From NCBI RefSeq assembly GCF_022919575.1, contig NZ_CP095071.1:1240001-1304000 (forward strand): a stretch of DNA of 64,000 bases, written 5' to 3'. Source of the stretch: Gracilibacillus salinarum. GTDB taxonomy: Bacteria > Bacillota > Bacilli > Bacillales > Amphibacillaceae. This document shows, one piece after another, positions 1 through 63,755 of this stretch (position 1 is its first letter; every line of letters starts with the position of its first letter). The position numbers were made by a program, and so were the translations under genes. The notes beneath the pieces were generated by a model that did not search any database, had not been told where the DNA came from, and saw only the letters and a list, made by a program, of their open reading frames with translations.

Positions 1-281
1 GTGCTGAAGATCCACAACGTCTGCACCTGCGTCTTCTAGTAACGCTTCGAAGTAGGCTTCCTCGGTGCAAGGCTGCAGAGAAGTGATTCAAGTAGTAGCC
101 TAGCTTCAGCCGTGCCCCGCAGGACGCGGAGTGGTTGGACGGAGCGGTATCCTAGCACATTAAATATCTCAATATGGATGCTCGGCTAGCAATGGCTAGT
201 TTACATAATCCACATTATAGAAACTCAGCTTCATGTTCAATATGATTACTGCTGTGACTGCACTTTTATACTGTCTTGACT
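1..281. repeat. Interspersed inverted-repeat element, copy E1 (cut by window edge)
   Basis: This is the right half of the long intergenic repeat family described in the summary. It holds the exchangeable core with the GCTTCGAAGT and CTTCCTCGG motifs, then the conserved stem GACGCGGAGTGGTTGG and the block GGAGCGGTATCC. It continues through the terminal motif ACATAATCCACATTATAG to the end motif ATACTGTCTTGACT. It stops directly at the terminator behind the efflux gene, as most copies do. Family membership rests on direct comparison with the other copies in the window. Function is unknown. Confidence 0.8.
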
Positions 282-13186: not shown

Positions 13187-13460
13187 GAACATCATATAGC
13201 CTGAAATTTATACTTTCTTGACTCATAAGAAAAACTGGGCATAACCCACCCGGTCCTAATTGACTTAATCAATAAACAACTTACTATAATATGGATTATG
13301 TCAACAGTGATCAATATGCTATCTCTTACAAAAGTTGTAGAGTCCACATCCTAGCGTAGGCCAACCACGGAGACTCCCGCGGGATTATGCAGGCGCTGAA
13401 GATCCACTTTGTGAAGCGCCCTTCTTCACAAAGTTAGCTTCAGCCGTGCCCCGCAGGACG

Positions 13461-15150
13461 TGGACCTCCCCCTGTCAAGTAAACAACTAAAATAATAAAA
13501 GACTAAGCTACTGTATTTTCAAAACATTCCATCGGGGTATAACCATTTAATGTTAGTTGTAAACGTTCATAATTGTAAAAGTGAATATACTCCGTAATGG
13601 CTTGTACTAATTGAGAAAAGGTTTGATATTCTTGTTGATGTAGATAATATTTTTCGCATTTTAATGAACTCCAAAAGCCCTCCATCGGTCCATTATCAAT
13701 ACATTTCCCTGGACGCGACATACTATGTTGTAGTCCTGCATTCTCCACGATTCGTTTAAATCCATACGAGGTATATTGTACGCCTCGATCCGTGTGAATG
13801 AGAGGGTGCTCGCCGTCTGATAACTCGTTTAAAGCCTCAATCAACGTATCAAATACCAATTCATTGTTATTCGCTCTTCTTATCTTAAATGCCACAATTC
13901 GGTTTTCGTTTAAATCTAATATGGCGCTTAAATAAGCTTTGTTCCCTTTTCCGTACTTAAATTCTGTCACATCTGTTAACCATTTCTCATTCGGCTTATC
14001 TGCGTGAAACTCGCGATTTAAGATATTCGCTGCTGTGTGCTCAGGTCTTGATGGTATATAGGATCTGGTTTTTCGTCGTATAACTGCTTTTATCCCTTCA
14101 ATATCCATTAATCGATAGATACGCTTGTGATTGATCGGATGCTCAAATTTTCTTTTTAACTCGCTAGTCATTCGCAGATAACCAATTGCTTGATCCCATT
14201 CATCGTACAACTTACGTATCTCTTGTAACAATTCTCGATTAAACTGATCTTCCTCTGTATCTTCTCGGATTAGCCACCTGTGATAGGCACCACGATTAAC
14301 CCCTGCCACCTCACACAATAGACAAATTGAAAAGGCCGTTTCTTTTTGTAGTTGTTGAATCACCTGATAGAGATGCTCATGACGTACTCTAGTTATCGTC
14401 GTGACCACCTCCTCTCCTAGCTCGTCCCACTTTTTTAAGAAAGCCACCTCTGCACGCAATCTTTCATTTTCCTTATCTTTTTCTCGATTTTCACGCTTTA
14501 GTTTCTCCTCTTTCGTTAAATCAGCCCATGGTTTTGGTTTTCCACGTCGATCCTGAAGTCCATCCCAGCCTTTAGCTTCATATTTCCGTATCCATTGATA
14601 TACCTGTTGATAAGAAACACCATACATGTCAGCGGTGTATTGGTAATCCTTATCATGATATAACGCAAATTTCACGATTTCAATGCGTTCTGTCATCGCT
14701 GTTGGTCGTCTTTTAACCGTCATAGAGAATCCCCTTTCTTCAGCACGTGCTTGTCTCTCCCTATACCGATTATACTTTTTCAACCAATTCCTTAAAACCG
14801 ATGCATCTGATATATCATGCATTTCTGTCACTTCTCGAACTGAATAGTTCCCAGATAAATAATCTCGGATGGCTTTACGTTTCCGTTCCTTCGAATAATA
14901 TTGAATCTCACCTTGTTTATTTAAACCTTGTTTCCCTTCTTTTTCTACGATTTTGGCCCATTTCTTAACGGTAGAATGATGCACACCGTATTTTTTCGTC
15001 ATCTTCTCCAACACACGGCCTTCATTTTTATATTCTTGAACCACTTTCCATTTGAATTCTGTTGAATAATATGGACGTCCCACAATTTGTTTCCTCCCTT
15101 TAACAGTTTATTTTTTTATTTAAGCTGTCTACCCTAAAGGGAGGTTATCA
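13461..15150 (-). mobile_element. IS3-family insertion sequence (IS150-like), 1690 bp
   Basis: The ends are TGGACCTCCC at the left and the inverse of TGATAACCTCCC at the right. The 3-bp sequence ACG is duplicated on both sides (13458-13460 and 15151-15153). The uninterrupted site CAGGACGCGGAG in sister repeat copies confirms a 3-bp target duplication. Inside lies one transposase gene. The intact ends and gene suggest a recent insertion. Confidence 0.88.
13503..15083 (-). CDS. IS3-family transposase, OrfA and OrfB in one frame
   Basis: 526 residues. The N-terminal half has repeated helix-turn-helix domains (FKWKVVQEYKNEG, ITEMHD-like region around residue 85, and a third near residue 150) and a leucine-zipper-like stretch ENERLRAEVAFLKK. 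The second half is the rve integrase fold with the DDE residues in WLTDVTEF, HTDRGVQYTS and MEGFWSSLK. Most IS3 elements make this product by a -1 frameshift between orfA and orfB; here the joint is a continuous frame. It catalyses excision and insertion of the flanking IS. Confidence 0.9.
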   Translation of the reverse strand: MGRPYYSTEFKWKVVQEYKNEGRVLEKMTKKYGVHHSTVKKWAKIVEKEGKQGLNKQGEIQYYSKERKRKAIRDYLSGNYSVREVTEMHDISDASVLRNWLKKYNRYRERQARAEERGFSMTVKRRPTAMTERIEIVKFALYHDKDYQYTADMYGVSYQQVYQWIRKYEAKGWDGLQDRRGKPKPWADLTKEEKLKRENREKDKENERLRAEVAFLKKWDELGEEVVTTITRVRHEHLYQVIQQLQKETAFSICLLCEVAGVNRGAYHRWLIREDTEEDQFNRELLQEIRKLYDEWDQAIGYLRMTSELKRKFEHPINHKRIYRLMDIEGIKAVIRRKTRSYIPSRPEHTAANILNREFHADKPNEKWLTDVTEFKYGKGNKAYLSAILDLNENRIVAFKIRRANNNELVFDTLIEALNELSDGEHPLIHTDRGVQYTSYGFKRIVENAGLQHSMSRPGKCIDNGPMEGFWSSLKCEKYYLHQQEYQTFSQLVQAITEYIHFYNYERLQLTLNGYTPMECFENTVA

Positions 15151-15304
15151 ACGCGGAGTGGTTGGACGGAGCGGTATCCAAGCACATGAATCATTTCAAA
15201 ATTACCACTAAGCATAAAGCGGCTAGTTGACATAATCCATATTATAGGAACTAAAATTCATGTTCAAAGTGATTACTGCTGTGACTGTACTTATATACTT
15301 TCTT

Positions 15305-17315
15305 GTAGAGTAGAAAACAGGAATTGGATATTGTCTTCTGTCCTCGGGTTTCAGGGTGTTCCACCTTACTAAGCCAGACTGAAAGGTAGTATCCTCCTCC
15401 TATTTCCCCTCATCAAACCGTACGTGAAGTTTTCCTTCATACGGCTTTCCGACGTTCTTCTTCCTTTGGCTTTACGGGTTATATAGCCAGTTTCACTAGT
15501 TTGTAACTTACTTCTTTGGCTGTTTCTTGCAGATAACCATGCTTATACCGCCTATTCTTCTTGTTGTTACGAAAGATGTTTAGTCGCTGTAATACATACC
15601 AATCAATTCGATTTAACCATCTTTTGGACATTGGAGAGAGTTGATAGTAATTCTTAAATCCTTGTAATTTGCGATTTAAGCCTTCTATTAATTCTTCCAT
15701 GTCTTCATGTAATTTAAAACGTGGTGATGTATATTCTTTTATTTTCTTTCGCATCTTCTTCATCGCTTTCTTACTAGGAATATGATGCATGAAATAGAAA
15801 ACGTGACCGCCTTTCTTCCGTACAGGAAACTTTCGATGATGAAAACCTAAGAAATCAAACCCTTCATTATCATCCCAGATATTGACAAGCTTTGATTTGC
15901 CTTCGTGTAACGTTAAATCCAGTTTCTTCATGATTCCTTGAATCACACGTATACTCCCTAGTGCTTGTTGCTTGGTTTTACACATAATGACAAAATCGTC
16001 CGCATATCGAATCAGCGTTCCCAAATGACCAAACTGCTTTTCCCATATCGTGTCCATGACATTTAGGTAAACATTAGATAGTAATGGTGAAATGACCCCG
16101 CCTTGCGGAGCACCCCATTCCGATTCTTGTAACGAACCGTCTTCCATAATACCTGCTTTTAACCATTTACGGACTAACTTGAGAATTCTCCGGTCACTTA
16201 TACGCTGTTCTACCAATTTCATCAACTTTTCATGATTGATGTTGTCAAAGTAACCTTGGATGTCGACGTCTAACACCCAATAGCTTCGTTTACTCTCTTT
16301 GCGAATTTTCGCAATCGCTTGATGAGCATTTCGCTTTGGACGAAACCCATACGAACTTTCTTTAAAGTCCGCCTCAAAAATGGGTTCGATTACAATCTTC
16401 ATTGCCATTTGTGCAACCCTGTCCTTCACCGTTGGGATGCCTAGTGGTCGTTTCTTTCCATCATCTTTCGGTATATAGGTTCGTAGCACGGGTTGAGGCT
16501 GATAGTCTTTCTCTTTCAATTCCACGTAGAGCTCATTCAAGAACTTCTTTTCTCCATAATCACTGATATCTTCCAGTGTTTGTTGATCGACCCCGCTACC
16601 TCCTCTATTTTCTCTCACTCTTCGCCATGCTTCCCATAGGATATCAGGTCGATGCATCTTATCATATAACGCATGGAACCGCCGTGTCTTACTTCCCTTG
16701 GCACAAAGGTATAATGTTCGTTGAAGTTGTCGAGCTTTTACATTATTGGTGTAGTTAGCTATTTTAGCATTCACTCACTCTTACCTCCTTAAAACATATG
16801 AACGAAGTAGGGTATTGGCTTCTGCCGTCCTTCCCTTCAGCCACGTTGTGTTGTCATGGCTTTCTTCGGTACTATAACCCCCTCCGACTTCCTCTCAGCC
16901 CATCCACCATTTCACATTACGCTTATAGGTTTTTGTTTTACTTCTTCTCTGAAGTGACCGAGGAGGATATCCCCAGTTCCGTTAACTACTTTCTTAACAT
17001 GTCGATCTCCATACCCCGAGGGATTCTTTGGTGTTGTCTATCCAAGTTCTTTACACCTTCCATGGTCTTCACCTATGAGCAAGAGGCTAGACTTCCCTTG
17101 TTCCTCTTAGAGGGTTGTAATTGTCGAGGCTACAAGATTCACTTTATGTTACGACCTGCTAAGTTGCTCGCACTCCCTAAAGAGTTACTTTGTCACGAGG
17201 CTTCAACCTTAGGATTTCTCCACCAGTTGCTCGTCAGCTACCGAGCGTCTTGGCACTTACTCGTATTGGACTTTCACCAACTAGCAATTAACGGCTTGCT
17301 GGGCACGCTACTCAC
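15305..17315 (-). mobile_element. Group II intron (IIC-like) with reverse transcriptase gene
   Basis: About 2.0 kb, reading leftward. The 5' end GTGAG (17311-17315) follows the T run of the GntR terminator, the target type used by group IIC introns. Domain V is visible at 15414-15449 as AAGCCGTATGAAGG-AAAA-CTTCACGTACGGTTT with the AGC triad and a two-base bulge. A plausible domain VI pairs GGGGAAATAGGA with TTCCTGTTTTCTACTC, and the 3' end CTACTCTAC finishes in AC. The 540 bases before the reverse transcriptase form domain I-III (no protein is supported there). The 3' exon is the end of repeat element E5. Confidence 0.8.
15479..16774 (-). CDS. ltrA: Group II intron reverse transcriptase/maturase
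   Basis: 431 residues. The reverse-transcriptase blocks are clear: RPLGIPTVKDRVAQ, SSYGFRPKRNAHQA, WVLDVDIQGYFDNINH (first catalytic Asp), APQGGVISPLLSNVYLN and the active-site box RYADDFVI. The C-terminal part (NRKLQGFKNYYQLS, DWYVLQRLNIFR) is the group II maturase X domain. There is no C-terminal HNH endonuclease, as expected for group IIC introns. It helps splicing of the host intron and copies it into new sites. A ribosome site AAGGAGG lies upstream (RC of 16789-16795). Confidence 0.9.
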   Translation of the reverse strand: MNAKIANYTNNVKARQLQRTLYLCAKGSKTRRFHALYDKMHRPDILWEAWRRVRENRGGSGVDQQTLEDISDYGEKKFLNELYVELKEKDYQPQPVLRTYIPKDDGKKRPLGIPTVKDRVAQMAMKIVIEPIFEADFKESSYGFRPKRNAHQAIAKIRKESKRSYWVLDVDIQGYFDNINHEKLMKLVEQRISDRRILKLVRKWLKAGIMEDGSLQESEWGAPQGGVISPLLSNVYLNVMDTIWEKQFGHLGTLIRYADDFVIMCKTKQQALGSIRVIQGIMKKLDLTLHEGKSKLVNIWDDNEGFDFLGFHHRKFPVRKKGGHVFYFMHHIPSKKAMKKMRKKIKEYTSPRFKLHEDMEELIEGLNRKLQGFKNYYQLSPMSKRWLNRIDWYVLQRLNIFRNNKKNRRYKHGYLQETAKEVSYKLVKLAI

Positions 17316-19895: not shown

Positions 19896-19966
19896 CTAAA
19901 AAACAGTGCTCTCGACATAGGATGAGCAATGTTCTTCAGGTTCTTTACCATGTTATCGACATCGCT

Positions 19967-20037
19967 CACTTATAGTCAGATTATTTACGGTAATCCGGTA
20001 GAAACACGCAGGCCATATCCCTGCTTTTATACAAGTG
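19967..20037 (-). promoter_or_regulatory. Purine riboswitch aptamer (guanine type)
   Basis: On the minus strand the P1 arms are CACTTGTAT and ATAAGTG. P2 and P3 loops are joined by GGGATATGGCCTGC, GTTTCTACCGGATTACCG and TAAATAATCTGACTATA. The base equivalent to position 74 is C (GACTATA), which selects guanine, hypoxanthine or xanthine and not adenine. A T run (19898-19903) lies after a long imperfect hairpin that begins at the 3' arm of P1. This hairpin is the probable termination switch, but its alternative folds were not resolved. Confidence 0.9.
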
Positions 20038-20059
20038 AGAATAATATACTTTATTCTAC

Positions 20060-22981: not shown

Positions 22982-24462
22982 CTCATAAGTGTGAGAAAAA
23001 CCGGGTAAGTTCACCCGGTCCTAACTAAGAAAATTATATACAACTCAACTAGCTGCTTAGTGGTGAGTTTGAAATGTTTCATGTGCTGGGATGTTGCTCC
23101 GGTCGGGTAGAAAACAGGCGCGCGCATTCATGTAGAATCACGTTTCATGTAGCCCCCCCACGATCCCGGACGGTCGGATTTCCCGAGTCCGGTTCTGACC
23201 TTGGCTCTACCATAAATATGCCTTCCTCATATAATCTAGGTTTAAGTTCTAGCCAACATTCACCCATTACTAAATGAGTTTACTTATCTACGTGAATGTC
23301 TCAGGCTTTTTTTGTGTTGACTCTGCGTTCAACTTTGCCAGACAATCCGCCAAGTATCCAGAGCCCCTTTGCCCTATCTTGGGTGTTACCCTTGACAGGG
23401 ATAGAATCTTGTTCTATCTCTGAAGGCATTACCCTTCATTCTTCGCTACTACGGACTCATCCGCCGATCCTAAATCTTCCATTCCTATTTCGCTGTTAAC
23501 TTATAAGGATTGGTCTTTGCAGGTTGTTGCTAGTCCCTGCTAGAAGTAGGACCTTCCCGTCGTTATCTCTAAGAATCTTTCCCTAGATGCTAAAACCCCT
23601 ACCCCGGTTGCTTCTATAGTGCTCATTACCGTTTCTTCCTATAGAATATCAGCCTTCCCCAAGTTGGCAACAGGTCGGCGCAAAAACATTTATCCCTTCA
23701 ACAGCTTCAGAAAGGCGCGAATTTTCGGGGCTGCAGTATTCGTTAAAGCCTTTTGGCCTCTAGGTTTGCTTGCCACACAGGCTGTTCCGACCTTGTATTC
23801 TCTGCGTAATACAGGCCGCCGTGGCGTTTACTTCCAAGCAGAACGTGGGTCGTTACCTTCCCACGCATTGGATATGCTAGTCGTCTGAATCGGCAAATTG
23901 ACGACAGGAGACTTTCACTCCATTAGATTCTTAGCCTTGACGGCTACTCCGCCAACCACTTCGCGTCCTGCGGGGCACGGCTGAAGCTAACTTTGTGAAG
24001 AAAGGCACTTCACAAAGTGGATCTTCAGCACCTGCCTGTCCCGCGGGAGTCTACGTGGTTGGCCTCCGCTAGGATGTGGACTCTACAACTTTTGTAAGAG
24101 ATAGCATATTGATCAGTGTATATATAACAGGAATGGAATGAATAACATAATGCCTAGAACCACTGCTTTTAGCTGTTTCAAATGTTGTAGAACTTCCCTT
24201 AAGCGTAGGAAATAGGCGGAGACTCCCGTGGAATCAGCGCGAGCTGAAGATCCATTTATGAAAGAAAAGGATTTTCTTTCATAAATTAGCTGAAGCCGTG
24301 CCCACAGGACGCGGAGCCTATTTCCGGAGCTTTCCTCAGCAGATAATATATATCAAAATGACCATCTTGAAATACAGCCTTTGTTAACATAATCCATATT
24401 ATAGGAACTAAAATTCATGTTCAATGTGATTACTGCTGTGACTGTACTTATAAACTTTCTAT
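22982..24462. repeat. Interspersed inverted-repeat element E7, carrying intron copy A
   Basis: The left end is the terminator-like AACCGGGT...ACCCGGT hairpin followed by a degenerate terminal motif. The first hairpin (CCAACCACTTCGCGTCC, core ACTTTGTGAAG...CTTCACAAAGT, ACGTGGTTGG) is followed by a second hairpin (GTAGGAAATAGGCGGAGACT ... GCCTATTTCC) with the core TTATGAAAG...CTTTCATAA. The right end has CATAATCCATATTATAGG. An 850-bp intron-like insert splits the base of the first hairpin. The element fills the whole gap between the aldolase and mqo genes. Confidence 0.85.
23102..23951 (-). mobile_element. ORF-less group II intron-like insertion, copy A
   Basis: 850 bp, reading leftward, nearly identical to the copy at 62346-63194. 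A domain V-like hairpin (23161-23197) reads on the minus strand GAACCGGACTCGG-GAAA-TCCGACC-GTCCGG, with a GAAA-containing loop and a two-base CC bulge. About 59 bases further is the 3' end CTGTTTTCTACCCGAC, which matches the intron with the reverse transcriptase (CTGTTTTCTACTCTAC). Domain I-like motifs include GGAGTGAAAGTCTCC. No reverse-transcriptase frame is present. The 5' end (CGGAGTAGCC) lacks a clear GUGYG start, so boundaries may be off by a few bases. Confidence 0.7.
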
Positions 24463-26286: not shown

Positions 26287-26316
26287 AGGCGTCACCTCGT
26301 TTCCTGAATAAACATT

Positions 26317-26886
26317 AAGAAAACCAGGCATAAACCGCCCGGTCCTAATTGACTTAATTAATAAACAATTTCCTATAATATGGATTATGTCAACTAGCCA
26401 TCGCTAGCCAAGCAGCCATTTTGAGATATTTAATGTGCTGGGATACCGCTCCGTCCAACCACTCCGCGTCCTGCGGGGCACGGCTGAAGCTAACTTTGTG
26501 AAGAAGATCGCTTCACAAAGTTAGCTTCAGCGCCTGCATAATCCCGCGGGAGTCTCCGTGGTTGGCCTACGCTAAAATTGGGACTCTACAATTTTTGTAA
26601 GAGCTAGCATATTGATCGTATGCATATATAATAGCTATTGAAAAATGTCTAGAACCACTGCTTCTAGCTGTTCCGAACGTTGTAGTACTTCCCTTTAGCG
26701 TAGGAAATAGGCGGAGACTCCAGTGGGATCAGCATGAGCTGAAGATCCACTTAGTTTGTGCCTGGTCTACTAATATCGCTTTGAAGTAAGCTTCCTCGGC
26801 ACAAGGCAGCAAGGAAGCATTTACAAGTAGCAGCCTAGCTAAAGTCGTGCCCACAGGGAACGGCGGTCTGCTGGACTGATCCACCT
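26317..26886. repeat. Interspersed inverted-repeat element, copy E8
   Basis: The left end has the CAGGC...GCCCGGT hairpin and CCTATAATATGGATTATGTC. The first hairpin has the core ACTTTGTGAAG...CTTCACAAAGT and closes with GTGGTTGGCC. The second hairpin has the third core type (GTGCCTG, GCTTCCTCGG). The element breaks off at GTGCCCACAGGGAACGG, so the right terminal motif is lost next to the fucosidase stop codon. Confidence 0.8.
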
Positions 26887-39422: not shown

Positions 39423-40080
39423 AGAAAAACCGGGCATAACCCGCCGGTCCTAACTGACTTAATCAATAAACAACTTCCTATAATATGGATTATGTAAACT
39501 AGCAGCTTAGTGGTCATTTTGAAAAAATATGTGTGGTATGATACCGCTCCGTCCAACCACTCCGCGTCCTGCGGGGCACGGCTGGAGCTAACTTTGTGAA
39601 GAATAACGCTTCACAAAGTGGATCTCCAGCACCTGCACAATCCCGCGGGAGTCTCCGTGGTTGGTCTCCGCTGATGTATAGCTCCACAATTTATGTGACA
39701 GCTAGGATATGAAGCACTATCTGCAAGATTTACACCATAATTGATGAAATACATTGCCTAGCACCACTGCTTCTAGCTGTTCCAATCGTTGTAGTACTTC
39801 CCATTAGCGTAGGAAATAGGCGGAGACTCCCGTGGAATCAGCGCGAGCTGAAGATCCACTTATGAAAGAAAAGAATTTTCTTTCATAAGTTAGCTGAAGC
39901 CGTGCCCACAGGACGCGGAGCCTATTTCTGGAGCTTTGTAACGCAGATAAAATATTTCAAAATGACCGTTTTGCCATACAGCCTTAGCATTACATAATCC
40001 ACATTATAGGAACTCCACATCATCTTCATTATGATTACTGATGTGACCAGACTTATATATTTTCTTGACTGATAAGAAAA
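39423..40080. repeat. Interspersed inverted-repeat element E9, complete
   Basis: A complete copy of about 650 bp. It has the left hairpin ACCGGGC...GCCGGT, the terminal motif CCTATAATATGGATTATGT, the first hairpin (core ACTTTGTGAAG...CTTCACAAAGT), the second hairpin (core TTATGAAAG...CTTTCATAA inside GGAAATAGGC...GCCTATTTC), the terminal motif ACATAATCCACATTATAGG and the end TATATTTTCTTGACTG. The first 400 bases are almost identical to element E10, about 6.3 kb to the right in the same orientation. A short degenerate fragment of the family follows to about 40195. Confidence 0.88.
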
Positions 40081-45770: not shown

Positions 45771-46460
45771 GAAAAACCAGGAAGCCCGCCCTGTCCTAAT
45801 TGACTTAATCAATAAACAACTTCCTATAATATGGATTATGTAAACTAGCAGCTTAGTGGTCATTTTGAAAAAATATGTGTGGTATGATACCGCTCCGTCC
45901 AACCACTCCGCGTCCTGCGGGGCACGGCTGGAGCTAACTTTGTGAAAAAGAACGCTTCACAAAGTGGATCTCCAGCACCTGCACAATCCCGCGGGAGTCT
46001 CCGTGGTTGGCCTCCGCTGATGTATAGCTCCACAATTTATTCGACAGCTAGGATATGAAGCACTATCTGCAAGATTCACACCATAATTGATGAAATACAT
46101 TGCTAAGCACCACTGCTTCTAGCTGTTCCAATCGTTGTAGCACTTCCCATAAGAGTAGGAAATAGGCGGAGACTCCCGTTGAATCAGCGCGAGCTGAAGA
46201 TCCATTTAGTCTGTGCCTGTGTCTGCAAGCATCGCTTCGAAGTGAGCTTCCTCGGCACAAGGCAGCAAAGCAGCTTTTCAATTAGTAGCCTAGCTGAAGC
46301 CGTACCCACAGGACGCGGAGCCTATTTCCGGAGCTTTGCTAAGCAGATTAGATATATCAAAATGACCATTTTTCAATACAACCTTATTACAATAATCCAT
46401 ATTATAAGACCCAGATTCCTATTCAGCATGATTACTACTATGACTGTATTTATATACTTT
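45770..46460. repeat. Interspersed inverted-repeat element E10, complete
   Basis: The element begins at the stop codon of the protease gene. The first part repeats E9 almost base for base (terminal motif, AACTAGCAGCTTAGTGGTC, first hairpin). The second hairpin carries the third core type (GTGCCTGTGTC, GCTTCGAAGTGAGC, GGCACAAGGCAGC) where E9 carries the TTATGAAAG core. The right end is CATATTATAAG and TATATACTTTTTAC. Confidence 0.87.
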
Positions 46461-62212: not shown

Positions 62213-63755
62213 AGAAAAACCGGACAAAACCCAATCGGTCCTATTTACCTTTTGTATATAGCTACCTATAATATGGATTATGTAAAGTAGCTATCGTTGC
62301 CAAGCATCCATATTGAGCTATTTAATGTGCTGGGATACCGCTTCGGTCGGGTAGAAAACAGGCGCGCGCATTCATGTAGAATCACGTTTCATGTAGCCCC
62401 CCCACGATCCCGGACGGTCGGATTTCCCGAGTCCGGTTCTGACCTTGGCTCTACCATAAATGTGCCTTCCTCATATAATCTAGGTTTAAGTTCTAGCCAA
62501 CATTCACCCATTACTAAATGAGTTTACTTATCTACGTGAATGTCTCAGGCTTTTTTTGTGTTGACTCTGCGTTCAACTTTGCCAGACAATCCGCCAAGTA
62601 TCCAGAGCCCCTTTGCCCTATCTTGGGTGTTACCCTTGACAGGGATAGAATCTTGTTCTATCTCTGAAGGCATTACCCTTCATTCTTCGCTACTACGGAC
62701 TCATCCGCCGATCCTAAATCTTCCATTCCTATTTCGCTGTTAACTTATAAGGATTGGTCTTTGCAGGTTGTTGCTAGTCCCTGCTAGAAGTAGGACCTTC
62801 CCGTCGTTATCTCTAAGAATCTTTCCCTAGATGCTAAAACCCCTACCCCGGTTGCTTCTATAGTGCTCATTACCGTTTCTTCCTATAGAATATCAGCCTT
62901 CCCCAAGTTGGCAACAGGTCGGCGCAAAACATTTATCCCTTCAACAGCTTCAGAAAGGCGCGAATTTTCGGGGCTGCAGTATTCGTTAAAGCCTTTTGGC
63001 CTCTAGGTTTGCTTGCCACACAGGCTGTTCCGACCTTGTATTCTCTGCGTAATACAGGCCGCCGTGGCGTTTACTTCCAAGCAGAACGTGGGTCGTTACC
63101 TTCCCACGCATTGGATATGCTAGTCGTCTGAATCGGCAAATTGACGACAGGAGACATTCACTCCATTAGATTCTTAGCCTTGACGGCTACTCCGCCAACC
63201 ACTTCGCGTCCTGCGGGGCACGGCTGAAGCTAACTTTGTGAAGAAAGGCACTTCACAAAGTGGATCTTCAGCGCCTGCATAATCCCGCGGGAGTCTACGT
63301 GGTTGGCCTACGCTATGGCTTTGCTCTACACCTATTAATACAGCTAATATTTTGAGCGGTATCCCTTAGTGTCTATACCTCATCTTTAATATGAATAATG
63401 CCTAGCACTGCTGCTTTTCACTGTTACATACGTTGTAGCACTTCCCTCAAGCGTAGGAAATAGGCGGAGACTCCTCATGCCTCAGCGCGAGCTGAAGATT
63501 CACTTATATTTATGCCTGTGTCTCCAAGTATCGCTTCGAAGTGAGCTTCCTCGGCACAAGGCAGCACAGATGCTGTTCAAGTATAAAGCCGCGCCCCACA
63601 GGACGCGGAGCCTATTTCCGGAGCTTTGCTAAGCAGATGATATCTATCAAAATTACCACTATGTCAGACAGTGTTACTTTACATAATCTATCTTATAGGA
63701 ACTTCGCTTCTTGTTCCATATGATTACTGCTGTGACTGCACTTTTATACTTCCTT
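62213..63755. repeat. Interspersed inverted-repeat element E11, carrying intron copy B
   Basis: Left hairpin ACCGGAC...TCGGTCC, terminal motif CCTATAATATGGATTATGT and TTGAGCTATTTAATGTGC. The base of the first hairpin (CCAACCACTTCGCG ... ACGTGGTTGG, core ACTTTGTGAAG...CTTCACAAAGT) is split by the 849-bp intron-like insert. The second hairpin has the third core type (GCTTCGAAGTGAGC). The right end has CATAATCTATCTTATAGG and stops at the terminator of the TrkA-C gene. Confidence 0.85.
62346..63194 (-). mobile_element. ORF-less group II intron-like insertion, copy B
   Basis: 849 bp, identical to copy A (23102-23951) apart from a few changes, such as one A fewer in the AAAAAC run, ATATG to ATGTG and CTTTCAC to CATTCAC. 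It has the same domain V-like hairpin and 3' end CTACCCGAC. It sits at the same position of the same repeat hairpin as copy A, in the same orientation. Near-identity points to recent mobility or gene conversion. Confidence 0.7.

Follow-up and report, generated by a model that had tools for sequence, protein, structure and literature searches.

Probable RT-less variants of group II introns with an altered domain V in the interspersed repeats of Gracilibacillus salinarum

Group IIC introns insert after a terminator or a stem-loop and recognise their target with a short EBS1. Other described group II introns lack an ORF, such as the TeI3 introns of Thermosynechococcus elongatus, for which action of the intron-encoded protein (IEP) in trans is shown in the part of the source drawn on here (PMC2882425). 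In the section of PMC12350094 used here, the triad of domain V is said to be ‘usually’ AGC or CGC, a wording that makes these triplets a consensus and not a strict requirement. Altered 5′ ends, e.g. GGGCG, are likewise recorded within the group II superfamily in the part of PMC8637638 cited here.

We analysed a window of 64,000 nucleotides from Gracilibacillus salinarum (contig NZ_CP095071.1, positions 1,240,001 to 1,304,000), which holds two RT-less group II intron copies on the minus strand, copy 1 at 23102..23950 (849 nt, running from GGAG to CTACCCGAC, with no protein of its own) and copy 2 at 62346..63193 (848 nt). A sequence-only reading had described the two as near-identical insertions at the same repeat position and in the same orientation, which is borne out, the identity being 99.65%; its ranges included one surplus base each, the last base of the 5′ exon. 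The genome of the window (G000, one 4.80 Mb contig) carries two further copies, one full (1556432-1557281) and one with an internal deletion (698590-699206, L004). The three full copies are 99.1–99.7% identical. Mapped genome-wide against the repeat sites, all four copies share one orientation and lie in an interspersed repeat directly 3′ of the same repeat sequence, GTGGTTGG, and the deleted copy has a few added bases (CGGAGCG) on its 3′ side.

The insertion junction of both window copies reads GTGGTTGGN^CGGAGC on the minus strand, and the full-length copies of the genome read GTGGTTGGN^CGGAGC or CGAAGC. The uninterrupted junction GTGGTTGGNCNGAGC occurs five times exactly in the window and once more with a mismatch, against a chance mean of 0.03; uninterrupted target sites lie at 131..145 (GTGGTTGGACGGAGC) and 15158..15172 on the plus strand and at 26448..26462, 39546..39560 and 45892..45906 on the minus strand. 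Because such uninterrupted copies of the junction exist, insertion of the full-length copies is seen to be precise, without duplication or loss, and neither target duplications nor terminal inverted repeats were found at the element ends read. A looser junction pattern (up to one mismatch) gave at least 506 matches genome-wide, the repeat's mirror arm included, versus 13 for a reversed control. The interspersed repeat is ∼540–600 nt long, has strong inner palindromes and occupies 457 candidate places in the genome, of which the 40 scored gave 118 matches. Repeat copies in the window were seen at 13225-13460, 26316-26829, 39423-40027 and 45820-46409, among others.

Directly upstream of copy 1, the 5′ exon forms a repeat hairpin (23951..24063, minus strand). 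Folded as DNA, the upstream stem-loops of the two window copies have z-scores of −6.84 (copy 1) and −7.77, with 0 of 200 shuffles equally stable. The proposal that this stem-loop is a IIC-like target holds for both window copies as far as a strong hairpin goes, but it fails in four of the six exons folded, those of Gracilibacillus massiliensis, Lentibacillus populi, Peribacillus cavernae and genome G849, where the stem-loop is unremarkable (z −1.3 to +1.3). The RT-less family does not generally target an upstream stem-loop. Membership of group IIC was considered as well, and with a 7-bp EBS1 and a strong hairpin in only two of the six exons folded the elements are not assigned to it.

The elements fold into six consecutive domains, I to VI, in the normal order (RNAalifold, 15 elements). 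In a 14-element alignment, 94.3% of 3,249 cells are paired, compared with 34–45% when the partners are slid, and 133 of 236 pairs have changed on both sides (shuffled mean 69.8). The covariation score of 0.406, versus 0.184, was reached in 0 of 500 shuffles; fold and test share one alignment, which favours the structure, and the margin is still large. Left out of the alignments were L110 (5′ cut), L116 (deleted), L118 (chimera) and L119 (contig end), as well as L065, L074 and L075, for which the 3′ end was not found in the locus. By this architecture, the window insertions are group II introns.

In copy 1, all on the minus strand, domain I extends from enclosing helix to enclosing helix at 23557..23943 and includes a match to RF02003 at 23793-23924 whose 33.9 bits fall short of the gathering score of 49, followed by domain II (23463..23556), domain III (23359..23461), domain IV (23197..23358), a variant domain V of 34 nt placed by alignment and fold (23162..23195, GAACCGGACTCGGGAAATCCGACCGTCCGGGATC) and domain VI (23105..23158), the others being taken from RNAalifold. 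The candidate branch adenosine is predicted at 23108, the seventh base from the 3′ end. No RT ORF was found within domain IV, and the longest sense stop-to-stop frame in copy 1 has 59 codons. The only long frame, of 283 aa, lies in the region of the Mycobacterium riyadhense element and is matched by no Pfam family (E up to 1). Alignment columns 803–884, in domain IV, form a large covarying hairpin ahead of domain V, in M. riyadhense too, and in its helix 34 12 of the 16 pairs have changed on both sides. This hairpin might replace a protein-binding part of domain IV.

These elements lack two consensus features of group II introns. The domain V-like hairpin with a two-base bulge noticed in the sequence-only reading is real, 34 nt long with a 2-nt 3′ bulge, and its triad reads AAC in place of AGC or CGC, with one extra base on the opposite strand. 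Each of the 31 rows matched, among which one place appears twice, has the middle A of the triad; 24 of these rows were found without the domain V pattern and seven by the pattern. From Bacillota to Mycobacterium and Cupriavidus, domain V hardly varies, and two of its changes keep pairs, the basal G-C being A-U in G1161 and in L118 and a C-G pair being G-C in Cupriavidus. The 5′ end is GGAG (GGTAG in G1161) and not the consensus GUGYG, while 25 of 26 elements end in AC, the exception being a Niallia copy with a broken 3′ end. Given the absence of both GUGYG and an AGC/CGC triad, catalysis could be impaired.

The covariance search for a group II domain V, the lack of a hit having been named beforehand as refuting the intron, went against the sequence-only reading: the Rfam model RF00029 has no match in the window at E up to 10, and none on other element-bearing loci at E up to 5, 2 or 1. 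RF02003, which covers domains I–IV, matches 8 of 22 element-bearing loci scanned at 31.9 to 47.8 bits, all below its gathering score of 49. We built family models of the last 107 nt (R1) and the first 126 nt (R2). In the search of 398 genomes of the class, six matched, namely the window's genome, a true member (G523) and four with canonical introns; in these four, R1 matches canonical domain Vs at 33–47 bits, and the loci concerned (L102-L105), tried as family members, were rejected as canonical RT-type introns on reading. Tested directly on 14 RT-intron loci, R1 reaches two (L057, L080), and R2 matches domain I of the RT-bearing introns L154 (G988, 39.4 bits) and L152 (G849, 14.5 bits), with no match in the remaining 12, family A (see below) included. 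The elements appear to be little-noticed group II introns with an altered catalytic core.

Target recognition could be read from the covariation of introns with their exons. In copy 1 (minus strand), EBS1 (GCCAACT, 23662..23668) occupies the loop of a domain I hairpin and pairs with IBS1 (GGTTGGC, 23951..23957), the last 7 bases of the 5′ exon, and EBS3 (G, 23599..23599) pairs with IBS3 (C, 23101..23101), the first base of the 3′ exon. At a single alignment position, EBS1 and IBS1 form 102 of 105 possible pairs (G-U counted) in 15 lineages, three of which come from one genome and one of which is a single G. massiliensis copy standing for that species. In a scan of every column against 12 exon offsets, the best unrelated register, besides shifted readings of the same site, reaches 61; for the first 10 lineages the count is 69 of 70 against a permuted mean of 36.0, with 0 of 200,000 permutations as high. 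As the EBS1 pairing extends to the base before GGAG, it fixes the 5′ end of the element. EBS3 is the sole column that forms Watson–Crick pairs in 14/14 lineages (next best 10/14), being G where the 3′ exon starts with C and T where it starts with A; Niallia, with its broken 3′ end, stands outside this count, and L110 would add a G-U wobble. The corresponding scan for EBS2–IBS2 gave a best value of 61/105, which is the background level.

On reading, the G. massiliensis elements occupy a related repeat, in which they lie on the opposite strand and are displaced by a few bases, with EBS1 altered to match; in the 12 copies there with a readable 3′ end, the +1 base is C in ten, T in one and an unpaired G in one. 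As shown by covariation across the aligned lineages, target choice consists of a 7-bp EBS1 pairing plus EBS3, with lineages differing in target together with EBS1 and EBS3. Taken with the uninterrupted junctions and the six-domain fold, this covariation supports the original reading of the insertions as introns that home to the interspersed repeat.

A 5′-end pattern retrieved 18 stretches, 13 in G. massiliensis, two in Peribacillus cavernae and one each in Neobacillus soli, Lentibacillus populi and Cytobacillus citreus. The nine G. massiliensis stretches compared are 97.8–100% identical, and this likeness of copies within a genome suggests that the RT-less intron moved recently. Plasmids carry a Niallia copy, a full-length relative in M. 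riyadhense and a 3′ part in Cupriavidus. Counting the window's genome in each sample, 11 of 150 relatives hold an element or fragment and, with at most two mismatches allowed, the domain V pattern occurs in 4 of 397 genomes sampled from the order and in 6 of 398 from the phylum, five of these six lying outside the window's class. Relatives occur both within and beyond this class in Bacillota, and none was seen with a reverse transcriptase. The exact domain V pattern was found in no viral contig, and phage records gave no match either. Deletion derivatives are L004 in the window's genome and L116 in G919. The elements L116 and L121 (G988) stand directly after a CACAGAG target, in G919 within a palindromic stretch. 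Another locus, L118 (G1003, 897-1599), is a chimera of a D1D4-6 type domain I, an N-terminal piece resembling what we take to be an intron-encoded protein, and the variant domain V.

Several relatives are inserted in other group II introns. The case for nesting in domain I of a second group II intron is good for L020 and L112, where RF02005 scores above its gathering score on both sides of the element. The same nesting is weakly indicated for L079, L072 and L075, where RF02005 across the junction gives 40.1, 22.5 and 23.8 bits, respectively. The flanks of the C. citreus and M. riyadhense elements read as two arms of another domain V, with a GIIM domain upstream of the latter element, and an uninterrupted domain I site, GTAGACAGTTAGGT^AGTAGG, is present in the RT intron L154.

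Candidate helpers are present in the same genome, where seven RVT_1 genes fall into two families: family A comprises three genes of 431 aa in introns of the D1D4-4 class that follow terminators, and family B four genes of 444–468 aa in introns of the D1D4-6 class. One family A intron lies in the window at 15305..17315 on the minus strand, with its RT ORF at 15479-16774, after a terminator hairpin. The first bases of family A introns (L052, L053, L057; 17315 in the window) vary, as GTGAG, ATGAG or a shortened form, after T-runs. Elsewhere in this region we noted a transposase-like gene (13503-15083, minus strand), which encodes rve and HTH domains and lies downstream of the window RT intron, and a purine riboswitch at 19953-20054 on the minus strand. 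The family-B introns L054, L055, L056 and L058 are, on reading, inserted in the same repeat as the elements at another site, GGCTTCAG^CTAACTT. Family-B reverse transcriptases of G000, G012, G028 and G820 form one clade with 69–79% identity between genomes; G012 yielded 11 RVT_1 genes, each of 468 aa, and the three placed in the tree all fall within this clade. The L. populi and G849 enzymes fall outside, and the tree thereby rules out one RT clade common to all element hosts.

Of the 14 element-bearing genomes tested, 11 have a GIIM maturase domain (10 above the cut-off), versus 74 of 199 in the order sample (73 above), an enrichment confounded by elements that sit inside RT-bearing introns and by fragment-only genomes falling mostly outside the 14. 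Genome G1161 gave neither an RVT_1 nor a GIIM match, although its element looks intact. At 23 of 27 loci the GC skew along the intron's direction is positive, which is what insertion into the lagging-strand template would predict, although this strand bias may reflect the orientation of the repeat. Insertion of this kind is described for RmInt1, whose protein is without an endonuclease, in the part of PMC8914252 used here. A reverse transcriptase borrowed in trans, as the sequence-only reading proposed, is the likeliest route.

The best explanation overall, which we consider probable, is that the elements are RT-less group II introns that choose targets by EBS1 and EBS3 and would splice and move with an RT supplied in trans. 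Three other accounts were weighed against it. That the elements are ORF-deletion derivatives of an RT-bearing intron whose parent is gone, as in T. elongatus, has a precedent in ORF-less introns near RT introns (in the part of PMC2882425 cited) and draws on the 3′ ends, which resemble those of family A and B introns; the likeness to the RT-bearing intron noted in the sequence-only reading is confirmed, CTACCCGAC and CTACTCTAC being alike. Family A also matches RF02003, at 108.7 bits, far above the element's own score. Against such a derivation, no IEP remnant was found in the element (best tblastn E 0.24), blastn at 1e-4 gave no match between the element and the seven RT loci of the genome, and in the local RT introns every domain V that Rfam scored is canonical. 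No RT-bearing intron was seen with the variant domain V, and the chimera L118 has a different domain I. We consider this origin unlikely.

It is quite unlikely, too, that the elements are decayed, splicing-defective relics of group II introns, moved only by recombination between repeats or together with larger elements. Such decay would accord with the non-consensus 5′ end and triad and with the deletion derivatives L004 and L116, but a nearly invariant domain V across Bacillota, Mycobacterium and Cupriavidus, elements with intact ends at unrelated loci, and the 133 both-sided changes, which imply selection on the fold, all speak against it, as does the fit of EBS1 and EBS3 to the target of each lineage, which recombination does not predict. 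A MITE-like, non-intron DNA element targeting palindromes, suggested by protein-less insertion at the base of palindromic repeats, is hardly credible given the six-domain RNA fold, the EBS covariation and element ends that, where read, show neither terminal inverted repeats nor a duplicated target.

For the RT-less introns thus preferred, we propose that the RNA would splice out of transcripts despite its 5′ GGAG end and AAC triad, and that mobility would proceed by reverse splicing into single-stranded DNA at the lagging-strand template. The cDNA would be made by an RT borrowed in trans, most likely from family-B introns (D1D4-6 class), which share several element genomes and, in G000, the host repeat. 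Insertion into palindromic repeats or into other group II introns would do no harm, making both safe landing sites. Going further, we put at somewhat better than even the chance that the elements form a long-lived lineage, spanning at least three phyla, that is RT-less, has a remodelled active site (AAC with an extra opposite base, 5′ GGAG) and spreads in a SINE-like manner on the enzymes of unrelated introns or by RNA alone, landing in palindromic repeats and introns. Surveys that start from the Rfam domain V model, such as that in the part of PMC8919778 cited here, would probably miss this family. With this family one can test whether another triad can stand in for AGC/CGC, whether introns can last across phyla as parasites of other introns' enzymes, and how new intron targets evolve, the last because EBS1 and EBS3 differ together with the site.

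We found no description of the RT-less family among open-licence papers, and each of the closest systems matches it in part. The TeI3 introns, in the part of PMC2882425 used, are likewise ORF-less and multicopy, with good EBS/IBS pairing and twintrons; they are unlike the present elements in that all occur in one genome and derive from a single ORF deletion, of which ORF remnants survive. The present family spans several phyla and showed no such remnant, has a changed domain V and 5′ end and gives no signal for EBS2. Class C introns share the weak domain I fit to D1D4-4 (RF02003, which strongly fits the local terminator-inserted RT introns), an EBS3, the absence of an EBS2 signal and the 5′ stem-loop of the window copies, but differ from the family in its 7-bp EBS1, variant domain V, lack of an IEP and four of six exons without a strong hairpin, and the window sites lack a terminator T-run. 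Intron C.te.I1 of Clostridium tetani, as far as the part of PMC3919590 used describes it, is similarly ORF-less, with EBS2 lost and the 5′ splice site shifted, yet it was found by its D5 motif and is described as having lost retromobility; the present family is multicopy and has no match to the Rfam domain V model. The circularly permuted group II RNAs, in the part of PMC8637638 cited, also lack an ORF and replace GUGYG by GGGCG at the 5′ boundary, whereas the present family keeps the normal domain order. Set beside these systems, the elements are best described as a new variant of group II introns that lacks an RT.
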